This document shows positions 3,301-59,347 of a stretch of DNA of 64,000 bases, one piece after another. Below the pieces are notes generated by a model. It had not been told where the DNA came from. It was given only the letters and a program-made list of their open reading frames with translations, and did no database searches. The stretch spans positions 1 to 64,000 of the forward strand of contig JAFECU010000290.1 in NCBI GenBank assembly GCA_018242005.1, in the 5' to 3' direction. The DNA is from Pseudomonadota bacterium. GTDB taxonomy: Bacteria; Pseudomonadota; Gammaproteobacteria; Burkholderiales; Burkholderiaceae_C. The translations under genes and the position numbers were made by a program. Position 1 is the stretch's first letter. The number at the start of each line of letters is the position of its first letter.

Positions 3301-4281
3301 ATGAGACGCTATTCCCGCATTTCCGGCACTGGCAGCTACCTGCCGCCGCGCCTTGTGACCAATGATGATCTGGTGGCCCAGCTGGCAGAGCAGGGCATCG
3401 AGACCTCCGATGACTGGATCGTGGAGCGCACCGGCATCAGGGCGCGCCACTTTGCCGAGCGCGATGTGACCGCCAGCGACCTGGCGCTGGAGGCTTCGCG
3501 CCGCGCGCTGGAGGCGGCCGGCCGCCAGGCGCAGGACATCGACCTGATCATCGTCGCCACGTCCACGCCGGACATGGTCTTCCCCTCCACCGCCGCCATC
3601 CTGCAGCACAAGCTGGGCATCACCAACGGCTGCCCCGTGTTCGACGTGCAGGCCGTCTGCAGCGGCTTCGTCTATGCGCTGACGGTGGCCGACTCCATGA
3701 TCCAGTCCGGCGCCGCCCATCGGGTTTTGGTGGTGGGCTCCGAGGTCTTCAGCCGCATCCTGGACTTCCAGGATCGCACCACCTGCGTGCTGTTCGGCGA
3801 CGGCGCCGGCGCCGTGGTGCTGGAGGCCTCCGACCAGCCGGGCATTCTGGCCAGCGCGCTGCATGCCGACGGCAGCCATGTGGGCATTCTGTGCGTGCCG
3901 GGCAATGTCTATGGCGGGCAGATCCTGGGCGACCCCCTGCTCAAGATGGATGGCCAGGCCGTCTTCAAACTGGCCGTGGGCGTGCTCGAAAAGGCCGCCC
4001 GCGCCACGCTGGAAAAGGCCGGGCTCACTGAGGGCGACATCGACTGGCTGATTCCGCACCAGGCCAACATCCGCATCATGCAGAGCACGGCGCGCCGGCT
4101 CAAGCTGTCCATGGACAAGGTGGTGGTCACGGTGGATCAGCACGGCAACACCTCGGCGGCGTCGATTCCGTTGGCCCTGGACCATGCCGTGCGCGCCGGC
4201 CAGGTGCGGCCCGGCCAGACCGTCATGCTCGAAGGCGTGGGCGGCGGTTTCACCTGGGGTGCTGTACTCCTGAAAATGTAG
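3301..4281 (+). CDS. fabH: Beta-ketoacyl-ACP synthase III
   Basis: This 326-residue thiolase-fold condensing enzyme starts each fatty-acid chain by joining acetyl-CoA and malonyl-ACP. The catalytic triad is visible: Cys120 in [11 protein letters not shown], His in PHQANIRIM (about residue 257) and Asn in [11 protein letters not shown] (about 287). The glycine-rich VGGGFTWGA lies at the C-terminus. The start at 3301 gives the family N-terminus [14 protein letters not shown]; an upstream extension of the frame would overlap the end of plsX. The stop codon TAG and the bases after it belong to a dispersed 50-base repeat, so the extreme C-terminus (LLKM) is set by that element. Confidence 0.96.
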
Positions 4282-4322
4282 CTGCTGGCGCTTGCCTGGT
4301 GGGCGCTAATAGTGGATTTTTA
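4272..4322 (+). repeat. Dispersed 50-base element, copy 1 (fabH end / fabD spacer)
   Basis: The sequence reads GTAGCTGCTGGCGCTTG, a spacer, then GGGCGCTAATAGTGGATTTT. It fits the family pattern described in the findings (left end ATAGCTG, two GCGC arms, right end GGCCATTTT-like). The copy supplies the TAG stop of fabH and most of the fabH-fabD spacer. Confidence 0.6.
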
Positions 4323-4338
4323 CTAGATATTCTTGACC

Positions 4339-5292
4339 ATGTCGAAAACGTTTGCTTTTGTCTTCCCGGGCCACGGCTCCCAGTCCGTGGGCATGCTGGA
4401 CGCCTGGGGCGGGCACCCCGTCGTGGCCGCGACGCTGCGCGAAGCCTCCGACGCCCTGGGCGAGGACGTGGGTGCGCTGATCCACGCCGGGCCCAAGGAG
4501 GCCCTGGCCCTGACCACCAACACCCAGCCCGTGATGCTGGTCGCCGGCGTGGCCGCCTGGCGTGTGTGGCGTGCCGAGGGCGGCGCACTGCCGGCGTGCG
4601 TGGCCGGGCATTCGCTCGGTGAGTATTCCGCCCTGGTGGCGTCGGGCGTGCTGACGCTGGCACAGGCCGCGCCCCTGGTGCGCCTGCGCGCCGCCGCCAT
4701 GCAGGAGGCCGTGCCCGTGGGCGTGGGCGCCATGGCAGCCATCCTGGGGCTGGACGCCTCCAAGGTCATCGCCGGCTGCGCCGAGGCCACGGCGAGCTTT
4801 GGCGCCGGAGCCACCGACGTGGTCGAGGCCGTGAATTTCAACGACCCGGTTCAGACCGTCATCGCCGGCACCAAGGCCGGCGTGGAAAAGGCCTGCGAGG
4901 TCCTCAAGGCGGCCGGTGCCAAGCGCGCGCTGCCGCTGCCCGTGTCGGCGCCGTTCCACTCCAGCCTGATGAAGCCCGCGGCCGAGAAGCTGCGCGCGGC
5001 ATTGGCGCAGACCACGTTGGCCGCGCCGCAGATTCCGGTGCTCAACAACGTGGATGTGGCCGTGCAGCAGGATGCCGACGCCATCCGCGACGCCCTGTAC
5101 CGCCAGGCCTTCGGCCCCGTGCGCTGGGTGGAATGCGTGCAGGCCCTCAAGGCCCGCGGCGTCACTCACGTGATCGAATGCGGCCCCGGCAAGGTGCTGG
5201 CCGGCATGACCAAGCGCATAGACGCCGAGCTGATGGGCGCCTCTGTGTACGACCCGGCCACGCTGGCCGAAACCAAGGAGCTGCTGGCATGA
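4339..5292 (+). CDS. fabD: Malonyl CoA-ACP transacylase
   Basis: This 317-residue enzyme moves malonyl groups from CoA to ACP for chain elongation. FVFPGHGSQSVGML at the N-terminus forms the first oxyanion loop. The nucleophile Ser92 lies in GHSLGEYSA, and the catalytic His lies in PVSAPFHSSLM (about residue 201). ATG at 4339 is preferred over an in-frame TTG two codons earlier. The stop overlaps the fabG start by four bases (ATGA), so the two are probably coupled. Confidence 0.96.
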   Translation: MSKTFAFVFPGHGSQSVGMLDAWGGHPVVAATLREASDALGEDVGALIHAGPKEALALTTNTQPVMLVAGVAAWRVWRAEGGALPACVAGHSLGEYSALVASGVLTLAQAAPLVRLRAAAMQEAVPVGVGAMAAILGLDASKVIAGCAEATASFGAGATDVVEAVNFNDPVQTVIAGTKAGVEKACEVLKAAGAKRALPLPVSAPFHSSLMKPAAEKLRAALAQTTLAAPQIPVLNNVDVAVQQDADAIRDALYRQAFGPVRWVECVQALKARGVTHVIECGPGKVLAGMTKRIDAELMGASVYDPATLAETKELLA

Positions 5293-6026
5293 GCGAGACC
5301 ACTCCCCAGATTGCGCTGGTCACCGGCGCCACGCGCGGCATTGGTGCCGCCATTGCCGCCGAGCTGGCCGCGCGCGGCCTGCGCGTGATCGGCACGGCCA
5401 CCAGTGACGAGGGCGCAGCGCGCATCAGCGAGGCCCTGGCGACCCATGGCGGCAAGGGCGTCAAGCTCAACGTGACCGACGGCGCCGCCGTGGACGCGCT
5501 GGTCGACGCCATCGTGAAGGAATATGGCGGCCTGCATGTGCTGGTGAACAACGCCGGCATCACGCGCGACCAGCTTGCCATGCGCATGAAGGACGACGAC
5601 TGGGACGCCGTGCTCGACACCAACCTGAAGGCCGTGTTCCGAGTCAGTCGCGCCGCCATCCGTCCCATGATGAAGCAGCGCTTTGGCCGCATCATCAGCA
5701 TCACCAGCGTGGTTGGCGCCTCGGGCAACCCGGGCCAGGCCAATTACGCGGCGGCCAAGGCCGGCGTGGCCGGCATGACGCGGGCGCTGGCGCGCGAGCT
5801 CGGCAGCCGCGGCATCACCGTGAACTGCGTGGCGCCGGGCTTCATCGCCACCGACATGACGGCAGACCTGGCCGACGAGCAGAAGAAGGCGCTCAAGTCG
5901 CAGATCGCCATGGGCGACCTGGGCCAGCCCAGCGACATCGCCCATGCCGTCGCCTATCTGGCCTCTGCGGGAGCCGGCTATGTGACGGGGCAGGAGTTGC
6001 ACGTCAATGGCGGCATGTACATGTAA
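5289..6026 (+). CDS. fabG: 3-oxoacyl-ACP reductase
   Basis: This 245-residue classical short-chain dehydrogenase performs the NADPH-dependent reduction of 3-oxoacyl-ACP in each elongation cycle. The cofactor loop TGATRGIG is at residues 14-21 and NNAG near residue 87. The catalytic Ser-Tyr-Lys set is present as SITSVVG, then the Y and K of NYAAAKAG. VAPGFIATDM and HVNGGMYM complete the family pattern. It begins inside the fabD stop codon. Confidence 0.96.
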   Translation: MSETTPQIALVTGATRGIGAAIAAELAARGLRVIGTATSDEGAARISEALATHGGKGVKLNVTDGAAVDALVDAIVKEYGGLHVLVNNAGITRDQLAMRMKDDDWDAVLDTNLKAVFRVSRAAIRPMMKQRFGRIISITSVVGASGNPGQANYAAAKAGVAGMTRALARELGSRGITVNCVAPGFIATDMTADLADEQKKALKSQIAMGDLGQPSDIAHAVAYLASAGAGYVTGQELHVNGGMYM

Positions 6027-6090
6027 TTGAAGCAAATTAACGCCGGATTTTCCGTGCGGCGGGCTGCTAGGGAACTTTGCCCGAAGCGGC

Positions 6091-6369
<279 letters not shown>

Positions 6370-6377
6370 GTCGCGCG

Positions 6378-6396: not shown

Positions 6397-6429
6397 GCCG
6401 CGGCACCCGATCAGCAAAAGGTTTAACGC

Positions 6430-12475: not shown

Positions 12476-12477
12476 CC

Positions 12478-16455: not shown

Positions 16456-17468
16456 ATGCTATGAATACCGAAGCTGTCAGCGCCGATGAATCGGGCGCTG
16501 GCGGCCAAAATGACCTTGAATCCATGCTCTCAGCGGCGCGCCCGGGCGGTGCCGCGCCGGGCGACGGCGGCGCAGGCCAGCGCTGCGGCCTGATCGCCAT
16601 CGTCGGCAAGCCCAATGTGGGCAAGTCCACGCTGATGAATGCGCTGGTGGGCCAGAAAATCTCGATCACGAGCCGCAAGGCCCAGACCACGCGCCACCGC
16701 ATCACCGGCATCCGCACGCGCGGGCAGACGCAGTTCGTGTTCGTCGATACGCCGGGCTTTCAGACGCGCCACAGCACGGCTTTGAACAAGTCGCTGAACA
16801 AGACCGTGATGGGCGCCATCGGCGACGTGGATCTGATCCTGTTCGTCGTCGAGGCCGGCAGCTTCACGCTGGCCGATGCCAAGGTGTTGTCGCTGTTCAA
16901 GCCCGGCATTCCCACACTGCTCATCGCCAACAAGCTCGACACCGTGCACCGCCGCGCCGAGATCGCGCCCTGGCTCAAGAGCATGCAGGAGAGGCACCCG
17001 TTCGCCGAGTTCGTGCCCATGTCGGCCAAGAACCGTGGCGATATCGAGCGCCTGTTTGGCATTTGCGAGAAATACCTGCCCGAGCAGCCCTGGTGGTACT
17101 CAGAGGACGAGCTGACTGACCGCAGCGAAAAATTCCTCGCCAGCGAGACCGTGCGCGAGAAGCTGTTTCGTTTCACGGGCGACGAGCTGCCCTACACCTC
17201 CACGGTCGTCATCGACAAGTTCGACGAGGAAAAGAGCAAGCAGCACAAGCGTTTCCTGCGCATTGCGGCCACCATCGTGGTCGAGCGCGATGGCCACAAG
17301 GCCATGGTGATCGGCGAGAAGGGCGAGCGGCTCAAGCGCATCAGCACCGAGGCGCGCCAGGAGCTTGAAAAGCTCATGGACGCCAAGGTGTTCCTCGAGG
17401 TCTGGGTCAAGGTGCGCTCGGGCTGGGCCGATGACGAGGCGCGCGTGCGCTCCTTCGGGTATGAGTGA
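16452..17468 (+). CDS. era: GTPase Era with an element-encoded N-terminal extension
   Basis: This 338-residue GTPase binds 16S rRNA and is needed for 30S assembly. G1 is GKPNVGKST (residues 52-60). G3 is DTPGFQT, G4 is NKLD, and the KH RNA-binding domain fills the last 100 residues ([17 protein letters not shown]). Era proteins usually start just before G1, so about 45 extra residues precede it here. Part of that extension ([16 protein letters not shown]) is encoded by a dispersed 50-base element. The ATG overlapping the rnc stop is the only good start upstream; translation from a later codon cannot be excluded. Confidence 0.94.
16463..16512 (+). repeat. Dispersed 50-base element, copy 2 (inside era)
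   Basis: AAGCTGTCAGCGCCGATG, a spacer, then GGGCGCTGGCGGCCAAAATG. It lies in frame in the N-terminal extension of era, upstream of the GTPase domain. Confidence 0.6.
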
Positions 17469-17600: not shown

Positions 17601-17639
17601 CGGGCCTTGCCCGCAGTGCGTGGCTACGGCGGTTCAATG

Positions 17640-17690
17640 AAAACAGGCCTCTGACGCTTATCCGTAAAGCGCATAAAGCTATTGAAAAAA
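17640..17690 (-). repeat. Dispersed 50-base element, copy 3 (era-recO spacer)
   Basis: Read on the minus strand: CAATAGCTTTATGCGC, a short spacer, then AAGCGTCAGAGGCCTGTTTT. It lies just before the recO start codon. Confidence 0.6.
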
Positions 17691-17700
17691 TAGCATTCTC

Positions 17701-18486: not shown

Positions 18487-19265
18487 CCTCTCATCCCCGC
18501 ACTGCACTCTCGGTCAACGTCAACAAGGTCGCCCTGGTGCGCAACACGCGCCATCTGGGCATTCCCAGCGTCACGCGCGCCGCGCAGCTGTGCCTGGAGG
18601 CCGGCGCCCAGGGCATCACCGTGCACCCGCGGCCCGACGAGCGCCACATCCGCGCGCAGGACGTGCACGAGCTCGCCGAGCTGCTCAAGGACTGGCCGCA
18701 GGCCGAATTCAACATCGAGGGCAACCCCACCCACAACCTGATGGAGTTCGTACGCGAGCTTGCGGGCCAGGGCATGCGCCCGCATCAGGCCACCTTCGTG
18801 CCCGACGGCGTGGGCCAGTTCACCAGCGACCATGGCTGGCACTTCCCCGAAGACGCCGAGCGCCTTGCGCCGCTGATCGCCGAATGCCGGGATCTGGGCG
18901 TGCGCGTGAGCCTGTTCATGGACCCCATCCCCGAGCAGATGGCCCCGGCGCGGGCCGTGGGCGCCGACCGCGTCGAGCTCTACACCGAACCCTACGCCGC
19001 TGCCTGGGGCGGGCCCCAGCAGTCGGCGGAACTTGCGCGCTACCGCCTGGCCGCCATGGCGGCTGCGGCCGCGGGCCTGGGCATCAACGCCGGCCACGAC
19101 CTGAACCGCGACAACCTGGCCGACTTTCTGGCCGCCGTGCCGGGCGTGCTCGAGGTGTCCATAGGCCACGCCCTGATCGCCGATGCGCTGGAGCTGGGCT
19201 ATGACGATACGGTGCGCGCCTACCAGCGCTGCATCGACCAGGGCATGGCCGAGCGGGACTCCTGA
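18483..19265 (+). CDS. pdxJ: Pyridoxine 5'-phosphate synthase
   Basis: This 260-residue TIM-barrel enzyme condenses 1-deoxyxylulose 5-phosphate with 3-amino-2-oxopropyl phosphate to pyridoxine 5'-phosphate. [15 protein letters not shown] starts strand 1. [13 protein letters not shown] holds the catalytic region, with FNIEGNP, VSLFMDP and [11 protein letters not shown] as later hallmarks. Length is slightly above the usual 243. It overlaps recO by four bases, the common recO-pdxJ-acpS order. Confidence 0.95.
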
Positions 19266-19316
19266 ATTCATAGCTGTCAGCGCTTTCTGTAAAAGTGCTG
19301 GGAGCCACTTTTATTG
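19265..19316 (+). repeat. Dispersed 50-base element, copy 4 (pdxJ-acpS spacer)
   Basis: TCATAGCTGTCAGCGCTTT, spacer, AAGTGCTGGGAGCCACTTTT. It begins right after the pdxJ stop and fills nearly the whole spacer. Confidence 0.65.
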
Positions 19317-19322
19317 GTAACC

Positions 19323-19715
19323 ATGATTTATGGCATCGGCACGGACATCTGCGACGTGCGCCGCATCCGCGCCAGCGTGGAGCGCCATGGCGAGCGCTTC
19401 GCCCAGCGCATCCTGGCCCCGGGCGAGCTGGCCACCTGGCACGCCCGCAAGGCGCGCTGGCCCGAGCGTGGCCTGCGCTACCTGGCCACGCGCTTTTCGG
19501 CCAAGGAGGCGTTCTCCAAGGCCATAGGTCTGGGCATGGTGATGCCCATGACCTGGCGCGCCTGCGAGGTGGTCAAGCGCGAAAGCGGCCAGCCGGCCAT
19601 CGTGCTGCACGGTGCGCTCAAAGACTGGTTCGAGGCGCGCGGCCTGCGCTGCCACATCAGCGTGACCGATGAGAGCGACTACGCGGCAAGCTTTTGCGTG
19701 GTCGAGAAGGATTGA
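19323..19715 (+). CDS. acpS: Holo-ACP synthase
   Basis: This 130-residue enzyme moves 4'-phosphopantetheine from CoA to Ser of AcpP, here probably Ser37 of the protein at 6130. The metal-binding Asp lies in [12 protein letters not shown] (residues 4-15), and the Glu in [13 protein letters not shown] (about residues 57-69). ATG 19323 gives the standard N-terminus MIYGIGTD. Copies of the dispersed element flank it on both sides. Confidence 0.94.
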
Positions 19716-19769
19716 AGCATAAACCGCCTACAGCGCCCGCCAATAAAGCGTGGGTAGCTCTTAAAACGA
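19715..19769 (-). repeat. Dispersed 50-base element, copy 5 (acpS-nagZ spacer)
   Basis: On the minus strand: AAGAGCTACCCACGCTTTA, spacer, GGGCGCTGTAGGCGGTTTAT. It is more degenerate than copy 4 but keeps both GCGC/GCGT arms and both ends. Confidence 0.5.
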
Positions 19770-19782
19770 AAGCAAGCACCAC

Positions 19783-22628: not shown

Positions 22629-22665
22629 ACGCTGCCAATTGTAGGGACCGGCGCGCAATCGGGCG

Positions 22666-22671
22666 TAAAAT
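22666..22671 (+). promoter_or_regulatory. Candidate -10 box of the riboswitch-btuB transcript
   Basis: TAAAAT lies ten bases before the first conserved riboswitch base, an appropriate position for the start of the btuB leader RNA. No clear -35 is visible. Confidence 0.4.
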
Positions 22672-22680
22672 CGTGCAGTT

Positions 22681-22893
22681 GGTGCTCGCGGCGTGGTTCA
22701 CAGGCCGCAGTTCAACGGGAAGCAGGGAGGGGGCCTTCGCCATGAAGCACACCCCGAGCCTGCGCTGCCCCCGCAACGGTCAGCGGATGAGTCGCCAAAG
22801 CCGGCTCCACTTTCATTCACACGCCACTGGGTGCCTTGAACAAGCGCCTGGGAAGGCCATGAAAGCTGTTCCGCCAGCCCGGATACCGGCCAA
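22681..22893 (+). promoter_or_regulatory. Cobalamin riboswitch
   Basis: The element has the expected order of conserved blocks. GGTGCTCG opens it, followed by CGGGAA. The B12 box GCTGCCCCCGCAACGG is at 22764-22779 and CAGCGGATGAGTC follows. CGCCACTGGG, CGCCTGGGAAGG and the closing CCAGCCCGGATACCGGCC (ending about 22892) complete it. It precedes btuB by about 100 bases. That gap contains GC-rich segments able to form an expression platform over the btuB start. Binding of adenosylcobalamin should repress btuB and probably the whole B12 operon. Confidence 0.93.
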
Positions 22894-22995
22894 CTTGGTG
22901 GTTGTGCATGTCCATGCAGAGAATGGGCGCGTGCGGCCGTTTCACCCAACGCCGGCGGGGAAGCTGGCACGGGTTAGCTAATCGTGATTTTCCCT

Positions 22996-26244: not shown

Positions 26245-26891
26245 TGCTGTCGATTGCGCGCAGCGAGCTCATCCTCGGCGGCCAGAAGAGCGGCAAGTCG
26301 CGCCGTGCCGAGTTGTTGGCACGCGCATGGCTCGCGCAATCGCCCGCGCACCGCGCCGTGCTCATCGCCACGGGCCAGGCCTGGGACGCCGAGATGCGCC
26401 AGCGCATAGAGCGCCACCAGCGCGAGCGCGCCGAGCGCGTGCCCGGCATGCTGACGGTGGAGGAGCCGCGCGACCTCGCCGCCACGCTGGCGCGCGTGAG
26501 CAGCCCGCAGGCGCTGGTGGTGGTCGACTGCCTGACACTGTGGCTGACCCACTGGCTCATGCCGGCCGCACCGGACCCGCTCCCTGAGCCTGCGGGAGAG
26601 GGCAGGGGCGAGGGCAGGCAGCTTCGGTCGAGGCTGGTGGATTCTTATGAAAAACAGGCTGCAACGACCGACTGGCAAGCGCAGGCAGCTCTCTTTTTGA
26701 CAGCAATACAACAGGCCGCCGGCCCCGTCGTGCTGGTGGGCAACGAGATCGGCCTGGGCGTCATACCGCTGGGGCGCGAGGTGCGCGCCTTCGTCGATGC
26801 GCTGGGTGTGCTGAACCAGCAGATGGCCGCCGCCTGCGAGCGCGTCACGCTCATGGCCGCGGGCCTGCCACTGATATTGAAAACGCCTTGA
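26244..26891 (+). CDS. cobU: Adenosylcobinamide kinase / guanylyltransferase with a repeat-encoded insert
   Basis: This 215-residue bifunctional enzyme phosphorylates adenosylcobinamide and forms the GDP derivative. The P-loop GGQKSGKS is at residues 12-19. RIERHQRERAERV holds the GMP-accepting His region, VVVDCLTLWLTHWL the B motif, and VGNEIGLGVIPLGREVRAFVDALG the family C-terminal box. The usual length is about 175-185. The excess sits between residues 107 and 145. It is encoded by a palindromic GC-rich repeat (PLPEPAGEGRGEG) and then a copy of the dispersed 50-base element (EKQAATTDWQAQAALFL). Conserved motifs on both sides are intact, so the enzyme is probably active. Confidence 0.92.
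   Translation: MLSIARSELILGGQKSGKSRRAELLARAWLAQSPAHRAVLIATGQAWDAEMRQRIERHQRERAERVPGMLTVEEPRDLAATLARVSSPQALVVVDCLTLWLTHWLMPAAPDPLPEPAGEGRGEGRQLRSRLVDSYEKQAATTDWQAQAALFLTAIQQAAGPVVLVGNEIGLGVIPLGREVRAFVDALGVLNQQMAAACERVTLMAAGLPLILKTP
26571..26622 (+). repeat. GC-rich palindromic repeat inside cobU
   Basis: GCTCCCTGAGCCTGCGGGAGAG contains the inverted pair CTCCC/GGGAG, followed by a purine-rich GGGCAGGGGCGAGGGCAG tail. It is translated as PLPEPAGEGRGEG. Peptides of this PLPxGEGxGEG kind are the usual read-through of a widespread intergenic repeat, so this is probably an element recruited into the coding sequence. Confidence 0.5.
26646..26700 (-). repeat. Dispersed 50-base element, copy 6 (inside cobU)
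   Basis: On the minus strand: AGAGAGCTGCCTGCGCTTG, a spacer, then TCGTTGCAGCCTGTTTTTC. It lies in frame in cobU and is clearly AT-richer than the flanking codons. Confidence 0.5.
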
Positions 26892-27801: not shown

Positions 27802-28958
27802 AAAAAACGGGGGTCAGATTCCAATTGATCGGCCGGTCTCGTCCGAAATCAACCGGAGAAGCGGTCAATAATTGGAATCTGACCCCAATTAAAACCGGGG
27901 CGCAGGGCTGGGGGGGGCGCTGGCTCGGGTTGGGACTGGTGTTGCTGGGCCTGGTGCTGGTGGTGCTGGGCCTGGCCGTGGGCAGCACGGGGCTGGAGAG
28001 CCTGCGCCCGCTCTGGGTGGGCGAGGGCGATGCTGCCGCCATGGCGCGCCAGATCGTCTGGGACATACGCCTGCCGCGCACCCTGGGCGCGTGGGCCGCG
28101 GGCGCGCTGCTGGGCCTGGCTGGGGCCGTGGCGCAGGGCTTGTTTCGCAATCCGCTGGCCGACCCGTATCTGCTGGGCAGCGCCTCGGGCGCATCGCTGG
28201 GCGTGGCCGCGGCGCTGGCGCTGATGGGCGGGGCCGGCGGCATGCTCGGCGCCTCCAGCACGGTGGCCGTGGTGTCGGTGTATTCGGGCCACTGGCTGGT
28301 GCGACTGGGGCTGACGGGCGCGGCCTTCGTCGGCGCCGTGGCCGCCGTGCTGCTGACCCTGGTGCTGGCGCGCGGCGTGCAGCACACGCTGCGCCTGCTG
28401 CTGGCCGGCGTGGTCGTGGGCGTGGTGCTGGGCGCGTGCACCTCCCTCATCCTGCTGCTGTCGCCCGATTCGCTGCAGGCCATGCAGGGCTTTTTGCTGG
28501 GCTCCACGGGCTTTGTCGGTTGGACGGCCTGCGTGCTGCTGCTGGCCGTCTGGCTGCCCTGTCTGGCGACCGCCTGGGGCCTGTCGCGCGCACTTGACGC
28601 GCTGGCGCTGGGCGAGGCCACGGCGCACAGCCTGGGCCTGCCGCTGGCGCCGCTGCGCGCGGCCCTGGTGGCGGTGCTGGCCCTGGCCACGGGCACGGCG
28701 GTGGCGCAGACCGGGCTGATCGCCTTCGTGGGCCTGGCGGCGCCGCACCTCGTGCGCGCCGCCGTCACCGTGCCCCATGGCCGGCTGATGTGGCTGGCCA
28801 GCCTGATGGGCGGCGCGCTGCTGGCCGCGGCCGACCTGCTGGCGCGCGGCCTGCTGGCGCCGCAGGAGCTGCCCGTGGGCGTGCTCACCGCCGTGCTCGG
28901 CGGCGGCTACCTGCTGTGGCTGATGCACCGGCGCACGTCGCCGGGGGGGCTGTTGTGA
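27798..28958 (+). CDS. btuC: Cobalamin ABC transporter permease, N-terminus built from a repeat
   Basis: This 386-residue FecCD/BtuC-type permease has about ten hydrophobic spans. Family motifs include IRLPRTLGAWAAGALLGLAGAVAQGLFRNPLADPYLLG (quoted here in pieces: IRLPRTLGAWAAGALLG and QGLFRNPLADPYLLG), GFLLGST, and GLIAFVGLAAPHLVRA. The first span begins only at residue about 40. The first 31 codons (RFQLIGRSRPKS, NNWNLTPIK) are translated from an element with 17-base inverted ends. A G8 run at 27910-27917 lies just after it. The ATG overlapping the btuF stop is the apparent start; an internal TTG or GTG near codon 48 could be the original one. Confidence 0.88.
   Translation: MKKTGVRFQLIGRSRPKSTGEAVNNWNLTPIKTGAQGWGGRWLGLGLVLLGLVLVVLGLAVGSTGLESLRPLWVGEGDAAAMARQIVWDIRLPRTLGAWAAGALLGLAGAVAQGLFRNPLADPYLLGSASGASLGVAAALALMGGAGGMLGASSTVAVVSVYSGHWLVRLGLTGAAFVGAVAAVLLTLVLARGVQHTLRLLLAGVVVGVVLGACTSLILLLSPDSLQAMQGFLLGSTGFVGWTACVLLLAVWLPCLATAWGLSRALDALALGEATAHSLGLPLAPLRAALVAVLALATGTAVAQTGLIAFVGLAAPHLVRAAVTVPHGRLMWLASLMGGALLAAADLLARGLLAPQELPVGVLTAVLGGGYLLWLMHRRTSPGGLL
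27810..27886. repeat. 77-base element with perfect 17-bp inverted ends in btuC
   Basis: GGGGTCAGATTCCAATT at 27810-27826 is exactly complementary to AATTGGAATCTGACCCC at 27870-27886. An inner CCGGT/ACCGG pair (27833-27837 with 27852-27856) sits in the 43-base centre. From memory, ends of the GGGGTCAGA type accompany REP-associated tyrosine transposases (RAYT, IS200-like) in proteobacteria; no transposase gene is present here. The element lies in frame at codons 5-30 of btuC. Confidence 0.8.
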
Positions 28959-29737
28959 CTACTGAATCAATAGCGGTCAGCGCCCGCCAGATAAGTGCTG
29001 GAGCCGGAAAAGACTGCATATTGCAGGGCATGAACCTGCACATTGCCGCGGGCCGCTGGACCAGCATCGTCGGCCCCAACGGTGCGGGCAAGTCCACGCT
29101 GCTCAAGGCCCTGGCCGGGCTGCTGCCCACGCGCGGCGGTCATGTCGAGCTGCTGGGGCGCGAGCTGCACGCCTGGCCGCGGCGCGAGCGTGCGCGGCGC
29201 CTGGCGTGGCTGGGCCAGAACGAGGCCGCCGCCGACGACCTCACGGTGTACGACGTCGCGATGCTCGGCCGCCTGCCGCACCAGGGTTGGATGCAGCCCG
29301 CCAGCGCCCAGGACCGCGCCGCCGTGGAGCAGGCGCTGCGCGCCACGCAGGCCTGGGACTGGCGCGCGCGCGCGCTGGGTGCGCTCTCGGGCGGCGAGCG
29401 TCAGCGCGTGCTGCTGGCGCGCGCCCTGGCCGTGCAGGCCCAGGTGCTGCTCATGGACGAGCCGCTCGCCAACCTCGATCCGCCGCACCAGGCCGACTGG
29501 CTGCGCCTGGTGCGTGCCCTGGTGGCGCGCGGCCACACGGTGGTCAGCGTGCTGCATGAAATCTCTCTGGCGCTGCATGCCGACGACATGCTCATCATCG
29601 ACCGCGGCCAGGTGCACCACCAGGGCGCGGCCGGCGACCGCGCCACGCACCGTGCGCTCGAGCGCGTGTTCGACGACCGCATCGCCATTCACCATGTGGC
29701 GGGCCAGTGGCTGGCCCTGCCGCGCATCGACATTTGA
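28955..29737 (+). CDS. btuD: Cobalamin ABC transporter ATP-binding protein
   Basis: This 260-residue ABC ATPase pairs with the BtuC permease. Walker A is VGPNGAGKST (about residues 39-48), the Q-loop follows at LGQNEAAADD, the signature is ALSGGERQRVLLARAL, Walker B is VLLMDEPLANLD, and the H-loop His is in VLHEISLALH. GTG 28955 overlaps the btuC stop (GTGA) and keeps the first beta-strand. The first 20 codons (ESIAVSARQISAGAGK) coincide with a copy of the dispersed element. Confidence 0.9.
   Translation: MTTESIAVSARQISAGAGKDCILQGMNLHIAAGRWTSIVGPNGAGKSTLLKALAGLLPTRGGHVELLGRELHAWPRRERARRLAWLGQNEAAADDLTVYDVAMLGRLPHQGWMQPASAQDRAAVEQALRATQAWDWRARALGALSGGERQRVLLARALAVQAQVLLMDEPLANLDPPHQADWLRLVRALVARGHTVVSVLHEISLALHADDMLIIDRGQVHHQGAAGDRATHRALERVFDDRIAIHHVAGQWLALPRIDI
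28963..29010 (+). repeat. Dispersed 50-base element, copy 7 (start of btuD)
   Basis: TCAATAGCGGTCAGCGCCC, spacer, AAGTGCTGGAGCCGGAAAAG. It lies in frame in the first codons of btuD, immediately after the btuC-btuD junction. Confidence 0.55.
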
Positions 29738-32060: not shown

Positions 32061-32669
32061 TCAGGGAGTGCCGGCAGGCGGTGGCTGCGGTGTCTCCGGC
32101 GTCCTGGACTCGTGCCATGGCGTGCTGCATTGCGGGACCGCAGGGTAGTAGCCCGGAGGATCGTCGCAGTAGTATGAAAACGTCGGCTGTGGCGCCAGGC
32201 CCGCATCTCCCGCCGTGTACGGCACCAGCGGTACCTGCGCCGGGTAATAGACTGGCGCCGCGTAGGTAACGGGCGACACCACCAGCGGGTACGGGTAGAT
32301 CGGCGCGCCATAGAAGTACCACAGGCCGCCCGTCGCCCACCACCAGCCGCAGCGCCCGCCCCAGCAGGTGTGGTTCCAGCGCCCGCCGCTCCAGCGCGCG
32401 AATTCGGGCCGGCTGAAGCCGTGCACGTCGTAGCCCGGCCGATACGCCCATCGGCCCGAATTCATGCGGAAACTGCCTTGGCCGCTCCAGTGGCGACCAC
32501 CGTAGCCCGCGCCGCCATGGCTGTGACCACTGCCGCCGTAGGCGCCATGGCCGCCATGGCCGCCATGGCCGCCATGTTTCGCGAGCGCCGGGCCCGAGCC
32601 AAGCAAGAGAAGAGCACTCGCGAGCAGCCAACGCAGGCCGCGCGTGCGAGGTGAAGAAGATGCAGACAT
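32061..32669 (-). CDS. Secreted His/Gly- and aromatic-rich protein, unknown
   Basis: This predicted 202-residue exported protein has a signal peptide (GLRWLLASALLLLGSGPALA, residues 11-30). The mature N-terminus is a His-Gly tract (HGGHGGHGGHGAYGGSGHSHGG), encoded by a 9-base tandem repeat. A Trp/Tyr-rich middle (WWWATGGLWYFYGAPIYPYPL) and a Pro-rich end follow. The His clusters suggest metal binding. Similar short proteins are annotated as hypothetical in relatives; I do not recognise a named family. The start is supported by GAGGAG nine bases upstream. Confidence 0.7.
   Translation of the reverse strand: MSASSSPRTRGLRWLLASALLLLGSGPALAKHGGHGGHGGHGAYGGSGHSHGGAGYGGRHWSGQGSFRMNSGRWAYRPGYDVHGFSRPEFARWSGGRWNHTCWGGRCGWWWATGGLWYFYGAPIYPYPLVVSPVTYAAPVYYPAQVPLVPYTAGDAGLAPQPTFSYYCDDPPGYYPAVPQCSTPWHESRTPETPQPPPAGTP
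32544..32576. repeat. 9-base tandem repeat (GCCATGGCC) in coding sequence
   Basis: The unit GCCATGGCC occurs three times plus six bases, without interruption. On the coding (minus) strand it encodes the repeated His-Gly-Gly tract of the secreted protein at 32061-32669. Slippage would change the tract by whole codons. Confidence 0.8.
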
Positions 32670-35924: not shown

Positions 35925-35985
35925 AAATTTTGGGATAAATGGCCTGTAGCGCCTATATGGTAAGCGCTGGCAGCTATTGTTTTTG
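35925..35985 (-). repeat. Dispersed 50-base element, copy 8 (amidase end / dadA)
   Basis: On the minus strand: ACAATAGCTGCCAGCGCTTA, short spacer, AGGCGCTACAGGCCATTTAT. Its first TAG is the stop codon of the amidase gene, as in copy 1 with fabH. Confidence 0.65.
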
Positions 35986-37317
35986 TAACTCCCGTTCGAT
36001 CAGCCGGCCGACGTTAAGCACCGCGTCGTCGCGCAGCGCCCCATGCCACACCATCAGGCCCATGGGCAGCTCGCCCGCCTGGTGGCATGGCAGGGACAGG
36101 GCGCAGCCGTCCAGCACATTGATGACGCTGGTATTGCGCAGCAGCAGGGCGTTGACGCGGAAGAACTCCGCGTCGCGCTCGCTGCCCGGCGCCACGGATT
36201 CGATGGTGGGCGCGACGATGGGCACGGTCGGCGAGAGCAGGGCGTCGAAGCTCGCCATGGCCGCCTCCATGCGCGCGATCCAGGCGCGGCGCGCGTGCAG
36301 CAGGTTGATGTAGTCGGCGGCAGACATGCTGGCGCCGCGCTCTATGCGGCTGCGCACGCGCGGGTCGTAGCGGTCTGCGTGCTGCTGCAGCAGCGTCCGG
36401 TGCCAGGCGTAGCTTTCGGCGGCAGAGAAGCCGCCGGTGGCGTTCACCTCGGCCAGCTGCGCGGTCTCGGGCAGGGCGATCTCGGTGATGCGCGCGCCGG
36501 CGCTGCGCAGCTGCTGCAGCGTCCGCTCGAATGCCCTGGCCACGGCGTCATCCAGGCCGTCCAGAAACAGCGCTGACGGTACGGCCAGACGCCAGGCGGA
36601 CAAGGGCGCCGGGCTGCGCGTGATGCGGCGCGCGGCCAGAATCTCGTGCGCCACGATGGCGTCGCGCACGCTGCGCGTGAGCGCGCAGGCCGTGTCCAGC
36701 GTGGTCGAAAGCGGCAAGGCGCCATCGGTGGGCACCAGGCGTGCCGTGTTCTTGAAGCCCACGATGCCGTTCAGGGCCGCCGGAATGCGGATGGAGCCGC
36801 CCGTGTCAGAGCCCAACCCTATAAAGGCCGCGCCCGTGGCCACCGACACGCCCGCGCCCGAGGACGAGCCGCCCGGCACGCGCGCAGGGCCGGGCAGGGC
36901 GCCGTGGCGTGCGTCATGGGCGGCGGGCGTACCGAAATGCGGGTTCACGCCCACGCCGGAGAATGCGAACTCCACCATGTGCGTATGGCCCACGATGGCC
37001 GCCCCCGCGCGGCGCAGGCGCGCCACGGCCGTGCAGTCGGCCAGGGCCGGCGGCGCATCGGCCAGCACGGTGGAGCCGGCGGCGGTGGTCAGGCCGCGGA
37101 TGTCGAACAGGTCCTTGACGGAAACGGCAAGACCTGCGAGCGGCAGCCGTGCCGCGGCGGGGATTGCGGCGGCGCGCGCCTCGTCGTGGCAGGTCTGGCG
37201 AAACACATGGGCGCAGGCGGGATCGTTAGCGGCCGCTATGCAGCGCTCGAGTTCTGCCGGCGCACTGGAACGCCCGGCGGCAAGTTCGCTGCGGGTTGAG
37301 ACAAGGTCGGCCAACAT
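35974..37317 (-). CDS. Amidase signature family enzyme
   Basis: This 447-residue amidase-signature hydrolase has the Ser-cisSer-Lys triad: Lys in LAVSVKDLFDIRG (about residue 68), the cis-Ser in PGGSSSGAGVSVA, and the nucleophile in GSDTGGSIRIPA (about residues 148-176). It cleaves a carboxamide of unknown identity. It is not part of a gatCAB set. The C-terminal residues RELQKQ end at a TAG supplied by a dispersed element. It is divergent from rpsB; the 176 bases between contain the rpsB promoter and leader. Confidence 0.85.
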   Translation of the reverse strand: MLADLVSTRSELAAGRSSAPAELERCIAAANDPACAHVFRQTCHDEARAAAIPAAARLPLAGLAVSVKDLFDIRGLTTAAGSTVLADAPPALADCTAVARLRRAGAAIVGHTHMVEFAFSGVGVNPHFGTPAAHDARHGALPGPARVPGGSSSGAGVSVATGAAFIGLGSDTGGSIRIPAALNGIVGFKNTARLVPTDGALPLSTTLDTACALTRSVRDAIVAHEILAARRITRSPAPLSAWRLAVPSALFLDGLDDAVARAFERTLQQLRSAGARITEIALPETAQLAEVNATGGFSAAESYAWHRTLLQQHADRYDPRVRSRIERGASMSAADYINLLHARRAWIARMEAAMASFDALLSPTVPIVAPTIESVAPGSERDAEFFRVNALLLRNTSVINVLDGCALSLPCHQAGELPMGLMVWHGALRDDAVLNVGRLIERELQKQ

Positions 37318-43486: not shown

Positions 43487-43534
43487 GTGAGCTGACTGCA
43501 GTCGTCAGATGGATGTTTCAGTTGTAGTACGTTG

Positions 43535-43576
43535 CAAAACACTTGCGTGAAAAGCACTGTCAGCTATGAATTTTGA
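43535..43576 (-). repeat. Dispersed 50-base element, copy 9 (dxr-rseP spacer)
   Basis: On the minus strand: TTCATAGCTGACAGTGCTTT, spacer, GCAAGTGTTTTGC. The left half matches the family well; the right half is eroded. Confidence 0.5.
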
Positions 43577-43588
43577 GGAAACCTCCGC

Positions 43589-44950
43589 ATGCTGCTGACC
43601 GTTGTTGCCTTTGTCGTCGCCCTCGGCGTGCTGATCGCCGTGCACGAATATGGCCACTACCGCGTGGCCGTGGCCTGCGGCGTGAAGGTGCTGCGGTTCT
43701 CCATCGGCTTTGGCCGGCCGTTGCTGCGCTGGCAGCGCAAGGGCTCGCCCACGGAGTTCGTCATCGCCGCGTTTCCGCTCGGCGGCTACGTGCGCATGCT
43801 CGATGAGCGCGAGGCGCCCGTGGCGCCCGAAGAGCGCCACCTGGCCTTCAACACCCAGCCGCTGCGCGCCCGCGCGGCCGTCGTGGCAGCCGGGCCGCTG
43901 GCCAATCTGTTGCTGGCCGTGGTGCTCTATGCCACGGTCAACTGGAGCGGCGTGGACGAGCCCCGGGCGGTGCTGTCCAGTCCCGTGGCTGGCTCCATTG
44001 CGCAGCGCGCCGGGCTGCAGGGGGGCGAACTGGTAGTCAGCGCCGCCATTGGCGAGGACGATGCCGAACCCGTGCGCTCCTTCGAGGACCTGCGCTGGGT
44101 GCTCACGCGCGGGGCGCTGGATGGCGAGAACGTGCGCCTGCTGCTGCAACCCGAGCGCGGGGCGCAGCGCGAGGTGGTGCTGCCGCTGGAAGGCATGCAG
44201 GTGCGCGATGCCGACGCGCAGCTGTTTCGCCGCATAGGCATCGTCGGCCCATGGACGCGCCCCGTGTTGGGCGAGGTCATGCCCGGCGGCGCCGCCGAGC
44301 GAGCCGGCCTGCATCCGGGCGACCTGGTGCTGCGCCTGGGCGGCACCGATGTGGTGGACGGAGTCCAGCTGCGCGACCTGATACGCGCCAGCGTGCAGGA
44401 CGGCAAGCCGCGCACCCAGGTTTGGCGCATAGACCGTGACGGGCGCCTGCTCGACGTCGCCGTCACGCCGCAACTGGTGCCCGAGGCCCAGGGCCCCGTG
44501 GGCCGCATCGGTGCCTATGTGGGCAACCCGCCCGAGATGGTGAACGTGCGCTATGGCCCCGTGGAAGGGCTGTGGAGGGGCGTGCAACGCACCTGGGAGG
44601 TCTCGGTGCTGACCCTGCGCATGATGGGGCGCATGGTGATAGGAGAGGCCTCCATCAAGAACCTGAGCGGGCCGCTGACCATTGCCGACTATGCGGGCCG
44701 ATCGGCCAGCATGGGGTTGACGCAGTACCTCGCGTTCATGGCCCTCATCAGCGTCAGCCTGGGGGTGCTGAACCTGCTGCCGCTGCCCGTTCTGGATGGG
44801 GGGCACCTGATGTATTATCTTTGGGAAGGGCTCACGGGTCGCAGCGTATCCGAAGCCTGGATGGACCGGTTGCAGCGTGCGGGCGTCGTGGTGCTCCTCC
44901 TCATGATGTCCATCGCCCTGTTCAACGATCTCACCCGGCTATTTGGCTAA
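43589..44950 (+). CDS. rseP: Site-2 zinc metalloprotease RseP
   Basis: This 453-residue inner-membrane protease makes the second cut in RseA, freeing RpoE. The zinc site HEYGHY is at residues 22-27, within the first span (TVVAFVVALGVLIAVHEYGH). The third ligand is in LPVLDGGHLMYYL near residue 405. Two PDZ domains lie between, at about residues 115-200 and 210-300. It directly precedes bamA and skp, whose products it indirectly controls. Confidence 0.95.
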   Translation: MLLTVVAFVVALGVLIAVHEYGHYRVAVACGVKVLRFSIGFGRPLLRWQRKGSPTEFVIAAFPLGGYVRMLDEREAPVAPEERHLAFNTQPLRARAAVVAAGPLANLLLAVVLYATVNWSGVDEPRAVLSSPVAGSIAQRAGLQGGELVVSAAIGEDDAEPVRSFEDLRWVLTRGALDGENVRLLLQPERGAQREVVLPLEGMQVRDADAQLFRRIGIVGPWTRPVLGEVMPGGAAERAGLHPGDLVLRLGGTDVVDGVQLRDLIRASVQDGKPRTQVWRIDRDGRLLDVAVTPQLVPEAQGPVGRIGAYVGNPPEMVNVRYGPVEGLWRGVQRTWEVSVLTLRMMGRMVIGEASIKNLSGPLTIADYAGRSASMGLTQYLAFMALISVSLGVLNLLPLPVLDGGHLMYYLWEGLTGRSVSEAWMDRLQRAGVVVLLLMMSIALFNDLTRLFG

Positions 44951-50100: not shown

Positions 50101-51258
50101 ATGCAGTCACGCTCGCCCAGCGTTGCCATGGTGGCCGGCGAAACGTCGGGCGATCTGCTTGCCGGCCTGCTGCTCGACGGCCTGCGTGCCCAATGGCCGG
50201 ACGTAACCGGCATGGGCATCGGCGGGCCGCGCATGCAGGAGCGCGGCTTTGACGCCTGGTGGCCCAGCGAGCGACTGGCCGTGCATGGCTACAGCATCGA
50301 GCTGGTGCGGCGCCTGCTGGGCATCCTCAAAATCCGCAGGCAACTGCGCGCGCGACTGCTGGCCGACAGGCCCGATGTGTTCATAGGCGTGGACGCGCCC
50401 GACTTCAACCTGGGGCTCGAAGCCGACCTGCGCGCCGCCGGCGTCAAGACCGTGCACTTCGTCTGCCCGTCGATCTGGGCCTGGCGCGCCGACCGGGTGG
50501 ACAAGATCCGTGCCAGCGCCGACCATGTGCTGTGCATCTTCCCGTTCGAGCCCGAACTGCTCGCGCGCCACGGCATCGCCGCCACCTACGTGGGGCATCC
50601 GCTTGCCAGCGTCATTCCCATGCGGCCCGACCGCGCGGCCGCGCGCGCCCGGCTGGGCCTGGCGGGCGGGGATGAGGTGCTGGCCATTCTGCCGGGCAGC
50701 CGATCGGCCGAGGTGGCCTACATCGCAAAACCATTCTTTCTGGCCGCAGCGCTTATCAGACAAGCGCGGCCAGCTATCAAAATGGTGGTGCCGGCCGTGC
50801 CCGCACAGCGCGCGCGCATCGAGCAGATCGCGCGCGAATGTGGCGTGCAGGACAGCATCACCATCGTCACCGGACAGTCGCACCAGGTGCTGGCCGCCTG
50901 CGACGTGACGCTCATCGCCAGCGGCACGGCCACGCTGGAGGCGGCGCTGTTCAAGCGGCCGATGGTGATTGCCTACCACATGCATCCGATCAGCTGGCGC
51001 CTTATGCGGCGCAAGCAGCTGCAGCCCTGGGTGGGCCTGCCCAACATCCTGTGCCGTGACTTCGTCGTGCCCGAGCTGCTGCAGGACGCCGCCAGCCCTC
51101 AGGCCCTGGCTGCCGCCGTGCAGCAATGGCTGGACGCGCCCACCCAAGACCCCGCGCGCCTTGCGCGCCTGACGCAGCGCTTCACGGCACTGCATGAAGA
51201 TTTGCTGCGCGACACCCCGCGCCTGGCCGCCGATGCCATCCGAAAAATCCTTTCCTGA
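50101..51258 (+). CDS. lpxB: Lipid-A-disaccharide synthase
   Basis: This 385-residue GT-B glycosyltransferase joins lipid X and UDP-diacylglucosamine. Hallmarks are [15 protein letters not shown] (residues 8-22), [42 protein letters not shown] and [20 protein letters not shown] copy of the dispersed element covers residues about 209-227 ([19 protein letters not shown]). As far as I can align from memory it does not lengthen the protein. ATG 50101 is preferred over a GTG at 50068 that overlaps lpxA. Confidence 0.95.
50725..50783 (-). repeat. Dispersed 50-base element, copy 10 (inside lpxB)
   Basis: On the minus strand: TTTGATAGCTGGCCGCGCTT, a 6-base spacer, AAGCGCTGCGGCCAGAAAG. It is one of the best-preserved copies and lies in frame within lpxB between LPGSRSAEV and VVPAVPAQR. 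Confidence 0.65.
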
Positions 51259-51865: not shown

Positions 51866-52635
51866 CTGCCCAGCCCACCGTCATCCATTCGCGCGACAAC
51901 GCGCTGCTCAAGGACTTGCGCCGCCTGTCGCAGGACAGCACGGCCTACCGCAAGCAGGGCCGCGTGTGGCTGGAGGGTGACCACCTGTGCAGCGCCGCGC
52001 TGGCGCGAGGGCAGCGCCCGGCCATGGCGGTTTTTTCTGAGTCTTTTTGGCCTCTTGCGCCTATCCAATATACGCAATCAGCTCCTAAAAACATAGTTGT
52101 TTCTGATGTGCTGTGGCGCGACATCAGTGGCCTGGAGTCGCCCGCGCGCATGGGCTTCGTGCTTGCGCTGCCCGCCGATCAGGGGCTGGACGCGCAGGCG
52201 CCCACGGTGGTGCTCGACCGCCTGCAGGATGCGGGCAACGTCGGCTCCATCCTGCGCAGCGCCTCGGCCTTCGGCTTTACGCAGATCGCGGCGCTCAAGG
52301 GTACGGCGGCGCTGTGGTCGGTCAAGGTGCTGCGCGCTGGCATGGGTGCGCATTTCGCGTTGCGCCTGGTGGAAGGGCTGGAGCTGGCGGACATCGACGG
52401 CCTGGCCGTGCCGCTTCTGGCCACGAGCTCGCACCAGGGCGACTGGCTGCACCACGCCCGGCTGCCCTGGCCCTGCGGCTGGATCATGGGCCACGAAGGG
52501 CAGGGTGTCTCGGCCGCGCTGCAGCAGCGTGCGTGCCAGCATATCCGCATTGCCCAGCCGGGTGGCGAGGAGTCGCTCAACGTCGGTGCCGCCGCCGCCA
52601 TCTGCCTGCACGCGAGTGCAGCGGCGCGGGGCTGA
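51862..52635 (+). CDS. TrmH/SpoU-family RNA 2'-O-methyltransferase
   Basis: This 257-residue trefoil-knot methyltransferase probably modifies rRNA (RlmB-like). The N-terminal substrate-binding region reads [21 protein letters not shown]. The SPOUT motifs are motif 1 [17 protein letters not shown] (about residues 122-138), motif 2 [12 protein letters not shown] and motif 3 [15 protein letters not shown]. Residues 57-75 ([19 protein letters not shown]) coincide with an AT-rich copy of the dispersed element. It overlaps rnhB by four bases (ATGA). The exact target nucleotide is not known. Confidence 0.9.
52040..52092 (-). repeat. Dispersed 50-base element, copy 11 (inside the rRNA methyltransferase gene)
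   Basis: On the minus strand: TAGGAGCTGATTGCGTATA, spacer, AGGCGCAAGAGGCCAAAAAG. The segment is strikingly AT-rich compared with the codons around it and is in frame. Confidence 0.55.
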
Positions 52636-55581: not shown

Positions 55582-55590
55582 CGGTCGCGC

Positions 55591-58700: not shown

Positions 58701-58938
58701 GCGCGACGTGCTCATCGACCCCAACGACGCCGCCATCGCCCGCACCATCGTCGCCCTGGGCACCAGCCTGGGCCTGCAGGTGGTGGCCGAGGGCGTGGAG
58801 ACCGAGGCCCAGCGCGCGTTTCTGGAGCGCAATGGCTGCCATGCCTGGCAGGGCTACCTGCTGAGCCGGCCACTTCCGGGGCTGGCCTTCGAGGACTTCG
58901 TGCAGGCGCATGTTGCCACCGCGCCACTGCCGGTCTGA
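55786..58938 (+). CDS. CHASE-PAS-GGDEF-EAL cyclic-di-GMP signalling protein
   Basis: This 1050-residue membrane sensor has a first span at about residues 9-26 and a periplasmic CHASE domain ([30 protein letters not shown]). A second span lies at about 312-331 ([18 protein letters not shown]). Two PAS regions follow ([35 protein letters not shown]). The GGDEF signature is intact ([11 protein letters not shown], about residue 691) without an obvious RxxD inhibitory site five residues before. The EAL domain is intact ([10 protein letters not shown], about 822; [39 protein letters not shown]). Both diguanylate cyclase and phosphodiesterase activity are possible; EAL activity looks likely from its full set of acidic residues. 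Confidence 0.92.
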
Positions 58939-58951
58939 ACGCCTGTTGCCC

Positions 58952-59284
58952 ATGCAGGTTCTCTCCACGCTAGGCCTGTTCCTCGCCACGGCCCTGGCCG
59001 AGATCGTTGGCTGCTACCTGCCTTGGCTGTGGCTGCGCCAGGGGCGCAGCGCCTGGCTGCTGCTGCCGGCCGCCGCCAGCCTGGCGCTGTTTGCCTGGCT
59101 GCTCACGCTGCACCCGGCGGCGGCGGGGCGTGTCTATGCGGCCTATGGTGGCGTCTATGTGGCGGTGGCGCTGGCCTGGCTGTGGGCGGTGGACGGCATC
59201 CGCCCCGGCCCCTGGGACTGGCTGGGCGCGGCCGTCACGCTGTGCGGCATGGCCATCATTGCGTTTGCGCCGCGTGGGGCCTGA
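58952..59284 (+). CDS. ynfA: YnfA family (UPF0060) small membrane protein
   Basis: This 110-residue protein has four spans and the UPF0060 signatures [20 protein letters not shown] and [20 protein letters not shown] with the D-G-x-R-P block. The family is related to small multidrug resistance exporters. It begins 13 bases after the GGDEF-EAL gene on the same strand; a functional link is not implied. Confidence 0.9.
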
Positions 59285-59295
59285 TCGGTAAACTT

Positions 59296-59347
59296 CTAAA
59301 TTGATAGCTGCTTGCGCTTAATGGTAAAGCGTTGGCGCCATTTTTAT
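59296..59347 (+). repeat. Dispersed 50-base element, copy 12 (ynfA-smc spacer)
   Basis: TTGATAGCTGCTTGCGCTTA, spacer, AAAGCGTTGGCGCCATTTTT. This is the copy closest to the family pattern and the best seed for a search. The rest of the 162-base spacer has a TATGAT (59397-59402) that may be the smc -10 box. Confidence 0.7.

Follow-up and report, generated by a model that had tools for sequence, protein, structure and literature searches.

The first 64,000 nucleotides of contig JAFECU010000290.1 (assembly GCA_018242005.1), hereafter the window, carry twelve copies of a short imperfect palindrome that lie between, at the edges of and within genes, among them pdxJ, acpS, cobU and lpxB. An initial annotation, made from the letters of the window, had proposed a dispersed family of such palindromes in spacers and in genes of Comamonadaceae-type genomes, and our analysis bears this out. 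Comparison across genomes shows that the roughly 26-bp cores of copies at different sites share lineage-specific sequence in several lineages, and that the left end of each copy keeps the identity of its site. Like the initial annotation, we found no description of the repeat, its origin or its function in titles, abstracts and passages of the literature (subscription papers lie outside this coverage).

Our principal profile contains no window sequence. It rests on alignment A2, in which the copies at pdxJ-acpS in other genomes are aligned as orthologs (45 of 47 loci, with L097 and L102 left out; the source set also lacked loci with very short or very long spacers and one without a recognised start). 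This window-free profile matched all twelve of the positions originally listed, with scores of 11.9 to 45.4 bits, so that these belong to one repeat family. The weakest copies were those at 16463 (11.9 bits), 43535 (12.4) and 26646 (13.1). By comparison, first-order Markov sequence of matching composition (30 windows) yielded a single match above 8 bits, with a maximum of 9.0. An own-genome model, trained on 28 rows of which two are window copies (35926, 59290), recovered 10 of the 12 at 13.5–50.0 bits (shuffled maximum, 9.7) and missed those at 16463 and 52040. Across the source genome, the core pattern (up to three mismatches) had 151 matches, and its reversed control had none. The outcome that the initial annotation had named as speaking against a family, namely matches no commoner than in shuffles of the same composition, was thus not seen; the pattern controls and shuffled windows rule out a chance repeat.

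Column statistics for 29 own-genome copies, picked with a core pattern, place the conserved columns at about –15 to +52 relative to the ATAGCTG motif. The unit is therefore about 66–68 bp long, and the length of 50 bases given initially is too short. Its left end is rich in AT (GCT..T.AWTTTGATAGCTG), its core is palindromic (AGCGCTT-N7-AAGCGCT), and its right end reads GGCC.ATTT.ACTCAAA; the conserved flanks around the core read TTTGATAGCTG ... GGCCNATTT. The left end is the steadiest part of the unit. A2 was anchored on the ATAGC/GTAGC motif, and the near-invariance of this motif there is partly by construction. As originally described, both orientations are present among the window copies, and these are richer in AT than their surroundings (38–61% GC, compared to 68% for the window).

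The copies occupy a variety of sites, as follows (scores are in bits, from both models where two are given; gene calls in the window and in genome G021 come from a home-made gene finder). On the plus strand, 4262..4331 (27.3, window-free) lies between a FabH-type gene (3301-4281) and an acyl-transferase gene (4339-5292), both assigned by Pfam, and the stop codon at 4279-4281 coincides with the TAG in its ATAG-like motif. An eroded plus-strand copy at 16463..16530 (11.9), also compared across orthologs, forms the N-terminal extension of the Era gene (Pfam). Just upstream of recO (17701; Pfam) lies a minus-strand copy (17637..17696; 28.8) that is found in some relatives and absent from others. 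The copy between pdxJ and acpS (19257..19320, plus strand; 45.4) provides the pdxJ stop codon with its left end, and was followed through 89 loci, with genes named by Pfam. Inverted relative to it, a minus-strand copy (19710..19774; 14.7 and 22.3) separates acpS from a glycosyl-hydrolase-3 gene (nagZ), a site occupied in 53 of 87 loci. Within cobU (26244-26891; Pfam) there is an in-frame minus-strand copy at 26642..26706 (13.1 and 26.4), and at 28957..29020 a plus-strand copy (27.9 and 20.6) touches the end of a FecCD-type permease gene (27930-28958; Pfam). The minus-strand copy at 35926..35991 (33.4 and 47.6) lies between two called minus-strand genes, overlapping the end of one (35974-37317); the other is 34676-35923 (DAO family by Pfam). 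An eroded minus-strand copy (43530..43596; 12.4 and 13.5) is in a 102-bp spacer between called genes ending at 43486 and starting at 43589. Two further minus-strand copies are in genes assigned by Pfam: 50739..50795 (25.7 and 40.4) in lpxB, and the eroded 52030..52100 (15.1; orthologs reach 28.7) in a SpoU-type methylase gene. Lastly, 59290..59353 (plus strand; 42.1 and 50.0) is a well-preserved intergenic copy between genes ending at 59284 and starting at 59447. Three window copies are thus inside genes (CobU, LpxB, SpoU) and one forms the N-terminus of Era. Apart from these copies, the window has short tandem GCCGCCATG-like units at 32532-32588, a stretch in which the gene finder called no gene.

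Most copies of the family avoid genes. The 240 kb analysed in G021 contain 56 copies, of which 44 are intergenic, 3 lie at gene edges and 9 inside genes; 47 of the 56 are therefore outside genes or at their edges, whereas 85% of random 36-mers in this genome fall inside genes. The 46 non-genic copies touch a gene 3′ end 20 times and a gene 5′ end 11 times. Stops coincide with the left end of the element in 8 cases and the right end in 12, and starts with the left end in 6 and the right in 5.

Comparison of orthologous sites with and without the element, as the initial annotation had suggested, revealed a size difference at pdxJ-acpS. The comparison covered 89 loci. Of the 51 occupied ones, 30 have 57 or 58 bp between the two genes; of the 38 unoccupied ones, 14 have a distance of –4, which reflects overlap of the pdxJ stop and acpS start as ATGA. 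Unoccupied here means no match of at least 9 bits, and the other 24 of the 38 have distances of 2–94 bp, some resembling decayed copies. In most filled rows the pdxJ stop is inside the left end of the element, and in most rows the left boundary is the same across genera. Of 59 genomes with a copy on at least one side of acpS, 49 have copies on both; in the listed rows the two are oppositely oriented. By eye, we recognised at pdxJ-acpS neither the terminal inverted repeats nor the target-site duplication expected of miniature inverted-repeat transposable elements, but the 3′ end of pdxJ is too variable for their absence to be firm. These data show that at least some copies arose when a unit measuring ∼62 bp or slightly more was inserted into a spacer, often at a stop codon, and that sites persist across genera. 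We read the family as old and chiefly vertically inherited; its members are short interspersed elements that resemble repetitive extragenic palindromic (REP) sequences in size, copy number and placement.

Insertion has also occurred in frame within genes. The CobU protein of the window has ∼33 extra residues relative to PDB 8yep, and the element is within the extra stretch; elsewhere, a UDG has gained ∼25 residues relative to PDB 1ui0 and a ParB 18 relative to PDB 7bnk. The Era N-terminal extension (window 16461-16575) is in this genus largely the translation of the eroded copy; several other genera show weak matches at this site, and G010, G012 and G014 have no recognisable copy. Reading through copies thus adds residues to proteins (Era, CobU, UDG, ParB). 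In G021, a copy in a gene for what looks by eye like a proline-utilisation-type protein (L081, ∼3100-3400) lies beside another coding repeat (LPHAGEGGGEG..PSPQPSPQRGEGE).

Other genic copies leave protein length unchanged. For LpxB, the net difference is 0 residues in 9 of 9 orthologs with a match and 9 of 9 without, and the DNA of the window copy matches the 22 fixed positions of the core pattern with 0 mismatches. Among SpoU-type orthologs, those that bear the element show no difference in length (8 of 8 in the L052 row), and those without a match differ by 0 to 8 residues. The PurK of G021 aligns without gaps to PDB 4e4t across the element. In the scan of LpxB and SpoU orthologs, one counted as lacking the element if it had no match of at least 16 bits, and eroded copies may be included among these; antisense open frames over intergenic copies were disregarded. 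Conservation of synonymous or identical codons is lower in the element stretch than in the rest of the gene (LpxB, 0.572 versus 0.718; SpoU, 0.600 versus 0.694; Era, 0.731 versus 0.778). This rules out coding-level constraint on the LpxB and SpoU copies, and the fact that identical-codon use is not raised in gene copies speaks against a function at each site.

We then considered how widely the family is spread. Seven genomes of the same genus have 126–301 core-pattern matches each, and among 299 genomes of the family the core pattern has matches in 108. A flank pattern, in which only the flanks are fixed and the 26 core bases are free, has matches in 150 of the 299 and in 85 of 141 genera (controls, 0–2 matches per genome); by hand count about 87 of the 299 have at least 10, and many others have 1–2, near background. 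Counts with the two patterns can diverge widely: the core pattern found 6, 1, 4 and 0 matches in G065, G094, G129 and G061, where the flank pattern found 323, 180, 168 and 85. Genera named among the genomes of the family include Diaphorobacter, Alicycliphilus, Acidovorax, Comamonas, Delftia and Curvibacter. Genomes of other families (243, from 250 of the order) had 0–5 matches each, compared to 0–3 for controls, so high copy number was found to be limited to the Comamonadaceae-type family. Model scans of the kind proposed at the outset scored only the best 150 candidates per genome, so that the counts they gave are capped.

Free cores reveal lineage-specific dialects. Paenacidovorax caeni (L105) has AAGGGC arms in 4 of 7 listed copies, and Oryzisolibacter (L095) has ATATGGGC in 3 of 3. 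The Acidovorax loci L121, L131, L141, L152 and, in part, L116 combine AAGGCAT/AAGGAAT with GCGCGG-type right arms at both of the sites that flank acpS. Cores of the GCATAT/ACATAT type are found in L144, L146 and L150, and G094 has near-identical cores at many sites.

To quantify this pattern, we compared the pdxJ-acpS copy (site A) with the acpS-nagZ copy (site B) in 49 genomes, assigning matches to sites within 40 bp and removing 5 loci of duplicate genomes. The core distance between A and B is 0.381 within genomes and 0.447 between them (P = 5e-5, the floor of 20,000 permutations). For the left end the corresponding values are 0.443 and 0.434 (P = 0.90), and for the right end, a very variable region, 0.466 and 0.483 (P = 0.08). 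Orthologous copies in different genomes behave otherwise, with distances at A of 0.418 for the core, 0.224 for the left end and 0.397 for the right end, and at B of 0.434, 0.347 and 0.454. Two sites of one genome thus have more similar cores than one site has in different genomes, and for the left end the reverse is true. The core effect remains when genomes are thinned by Era identity to 33 or 20 diverged ones (P = 5e-5 and 0.00035) and when permutation is confined to GC blocks (P = 0.00015). Ten copies from each of nine genomes, chosen out of 16 candidates, gave a core distance of 0.346 within genomes versus 0.557 overall (P = 0.0005); some near-identical G094 copies were skipped here, which enlarges the within-genome distance.

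One conceivable origin of the dialects is repeated, lineage-specific bursts of ordinary transposition, in which old copies are lost and sites are refilled. The near-identical cores of G094 fit this, as does the existence of plasmid copies (see below). However, site-specific left ends persist in the dialect genomes, most rows share one left boundary across genera, and at two sites the left ends did not change together with the cores. Because orthologous left ends differ little (0.224 at A) relative to cores, the sites have not been refilled by whole new elements, and we regard such bursts as highly improbable. Whole-element refilling would replace the left ends; something therefore rewrites cores in place.

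We tentatively favour, at somewhat less than even confidence, an old and mostly vertically inherited family of inserted REP-like elements in which resident cores are overwritten by copy-to-copy gene conversion. Short-tract conversion would overwrite a resident core from another copy of the same genome, and the conserved flanks (TTTGATAGCTG ... GGCCNATTT) would supply the homology. Most copies may be of little use to their host, their persistence being due to renewal by the spreading process. Conversion is preferred because no dedicated factor is needed. Gene conversion was reportedly suggested for REP sequences by Higgins et al. in 1988; that idea becomes measurable here, where orthologous sites are fixed and left ends can be separated from cores.

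Several points weigh against this reading. Conversion events are here deduced from sequence distances. Copies of 70 bp that are ∼40% diverged would be unusual partners for RecA-type conversion. Support from the era-recO site is weaker (17 genomes; P = 0.005 for its comparison with A, 0.04 for that with B), and with the 12 dialect genomes removed the A-B comparison yields P = 0.054, meaning that the effect is carried by the dialect lineages. The right end varies too much to be informative. Finally, insertion does not explain the length-neutral copies in LpxB, SpoU and PurK, which call for conversion of DNA that was not an element, convergence, or insertion balanced by an equal deletion. A broader formulation accommodates them, and we consider it a reasonable possibility, although one we hold with reserve. 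Here, 26-bp cores at hundreds of fixed sites would be rewritten to the current core of the lineage, whether by conversion, a Y1 enzyme or biased uptake, giving concerted evolution of cores with left borders inherited per site and with imprinting on coding DNA without change in length.

Could the palindrome instead be a functional hairpin, such as a terminator or mRNA stabiliser, held by selection at each site? Copies do sit at stop codons and in operon spacers. At pdxJ-acpS there is modest covariation, with 81.4% paired cells, compared to 78.7% in shuffles, only 1 of 500 of which attains the observed level. Some of the G315 copies have compensatory-looking cores (GAGCTT..AAGCTC), and a perfect copy (L139) is more stably folded than its shuffles (z = –2.4 and –2.7). 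Main-type cores (G290, G115, G001) also fold better than core shuffles, with z about –2.3 under RNA parameters. On the other hand, folding of the well-preserved copy at 59290 does not exceed that of shuffles (z = –0.38 and 0.02), three dialects fold weakly (G094, z = –0.26; G061, –0.55; G025, –0.74), the AAGGGC arm common in L105 is mismatched, and RNAalifold predicted no consensus pairs for A2. What the initial annotation did not anticipate is that the palindromic core varies from lineage to lineage, with some dialects scarcely folding; equally unanticipated were the steadiness of the left end, the likeness of cores within genomes and the gene copies that leave length unaltered. The covariation and folding results reject strict hairpin selection. 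Between 15500 and 30000 of the window, none of 9 terminator-like sites (5.1 expected) uses the core stem of a copy, and one (29014-29026) merely overlaps the right edge of the 28957 copy; on this 14.5-kb stretch, the core stem is rejected as an intrinsic terminator. A known RNA family was likewise rejected, as an Rfam scan of the window gave nothing above gathering score at the copies. The scan returned only a cobalamin riboswitch (22663-22908, plus strand; RF00174, 74 bits). Taken together, we think a selected hairpin at each site quite improbable.

A dedicated enzyme is another candidate. In the REP/RAYT (REP-associated tyrosine transposase) manner, a Y1 transposase, single-copy in most genomes, might move the hairpin or exchange cores between resident copies; in the REPIN model, an excised hairpin pairs with its target (PMC3116915, in the passages available), which could replace cores only. 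A Y1_Tnp domain is present in 34 of 40 genomes, mostly as one gene, and a copy is within ∼600 bp of it in 10 of 27 loci (3′ side in 7, 5′ side in 5). Copies were found on both sides of the gene in 2 of 27 loci by model, inverted in one (L194, of G242); by eye, a second copy, half in length, is also 3′ of the gene in L195, perhaps another such case. Nevertheless, Y1 presence appears not to track the element, and Y1 was set aside as a discriminating factor: the element-bearing genomes G171, G284 and G315 have no Y1 match, whereas G008, G011, G013, G019, G027, G028, G034 and G293 have Y1 but 0–1 flank-pattern matches. There is also no conserved GTAG beside the palindrome, and several dialects barely fold. 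Moreover, the palindrome of the Y1 gene itself (TCTGACCCC), with 35 matches in 98 kb at Y1 loci, is not dispersed (8 matches in 2.7 Mb of other loci versus 39 in shuffled text). We therefore consider a role for Y1 doubtful, though worth keeping in view. As a separate observation, the Y1_Tnp gene in L172-L198 is mostly single-copy and precedes a gltB-like gene (named by eye) in many genomes of the family; these loci carry their own non-dispersed palindrome, AATTGGGGTCAGATTCCAATT.

Alternatively, the core may be the site of a trans-acting factor, for instance an uptake receptor as in Neisseriaceae, with transformation bias shifting all sites when specificity changes. The genome-wide, lineage-specific dialects resemble those of DNA uptake sequences (DUS), as described in the portions of PMC3630211 available, and the length-neutral copies in LpxB, SpoU and PurK are expected of a motif evolving in place; an uptake-type drive would best explain these two features together. 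All 48 genomes tested have a ComEC-type Competence domain, but as these include element-free genomes, in which it is equally present, it does not discriminate and was rejected as a discriminating factor. Furthermore, the unit is much longer and rarer than a DUS and largely intergenic, it was gained by insertion at pdxJ-acpS, and synonymous codons of the LpxB copy are, as noted, less conserved than the rest of the gene. On balance, we find recognition-driven dialects unlikely but, like a role for Y1, worth keeping in view.

Copies also occur on mobile DNA. A perfect copy matches 1749 plasmid records, largely from Enterobacterales and mostly outside Comamonadaceae. The 20 matches listed include 3 plasmids of Comamonadaceae, and in 15 a DUF1010 open reading frame (ORF) lies under the 40-base match; a single record in a phage collection, labelled Salmonella, matches the same 40 bases. 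In pCTX-M3 of Citrobacter freundii (NC_004464.2, L199:1052-1342), the one plasmid record examined, the copy is inside a DUF1010 cassette ORF between dfrA12 and aadA2 of a class 1 integron. The cassette is presumably that named gcuF/orfF. Its copy scores 35 bits over model positions 14–54 and has the AAGGGC arm, hinting at a Comamonadaceae-type source for the cassette. The first 22 of 66 positions of Pfam DUF1010 also match 2 of 4 other copy-reading ORFs weakly (E = 0.02 and 0.1, below cut-off), which is suggestive, but no more, of the repeat explaining part of this Pfam family. The dialects could act as lineage watermarks.

Among known systems, the initial annotation had named the Rickettsia palindromic element (RPE) as the closest precedent. 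The parallel holds for in-frame insertion (CobU, UDG, ParB); on the other hand, the CGTC tag that RPEs carry, according to the available text of PMC3733652, is not present in this family. The same source describes REP families as short imperfect palindromes, mostly extragenic, with some in ORFs and with ends that give stop codons. Our repeat shares with GTAG/CGTC-tagged REPs a short imperfect palindrome (weak in some dialects), high copy number and mainly extragenic placement. It differs in having no unpaired GTAG or CGTC at the end of the palindrome, with GATA/GCTG next to the stem in a consensus read by eye; a minority have GCTAC (GTAGC reversed) at their outer left end (of 29 rows, 13 have the A and 13 the C at the respective positions). 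It is also longer, with AT-rich flanks as its signature and lineage-specific cores at fixed sites. Two inverted copies do not generally flank the Y1 gene, unlike the arrangement given for RAYTs in the passages seen of PMC2817692. As in REPIN-RAYT systems, populations within genomes have genome-specific sequence and the main dialect is hairpin-capable; unlike them, Y1 presence appears untied to the element, sites are common across genera, and left ends and cores have different histories. The BRE of Bordetella, reported in Bordetella and Comamonadaceae genomes both between and within genes, is set apart by its description in the available part of PMC3110155: in Bordetella it is 75–91 bp long with ∼69% GC and can be tandem, whereas our unit is 66–68 bp, has 38–61% GC in the window and is dispersed. 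With the DUS of Neisseriaceae (PMC3630211, as above), the family has in common one genome-wide word per lineage, seen here in the A-B and nine-genome core distances, as well as intragenic copies and inverted pairs able to form stem-loops; DUS, however, are ∼10–12 bp long, number in the thousands and have a known receptor, whereas the present element is ∼66 bp long and insertion-born. We therefore call the repeat a REP-like, untagged family of its own, rather than a member of any named one.

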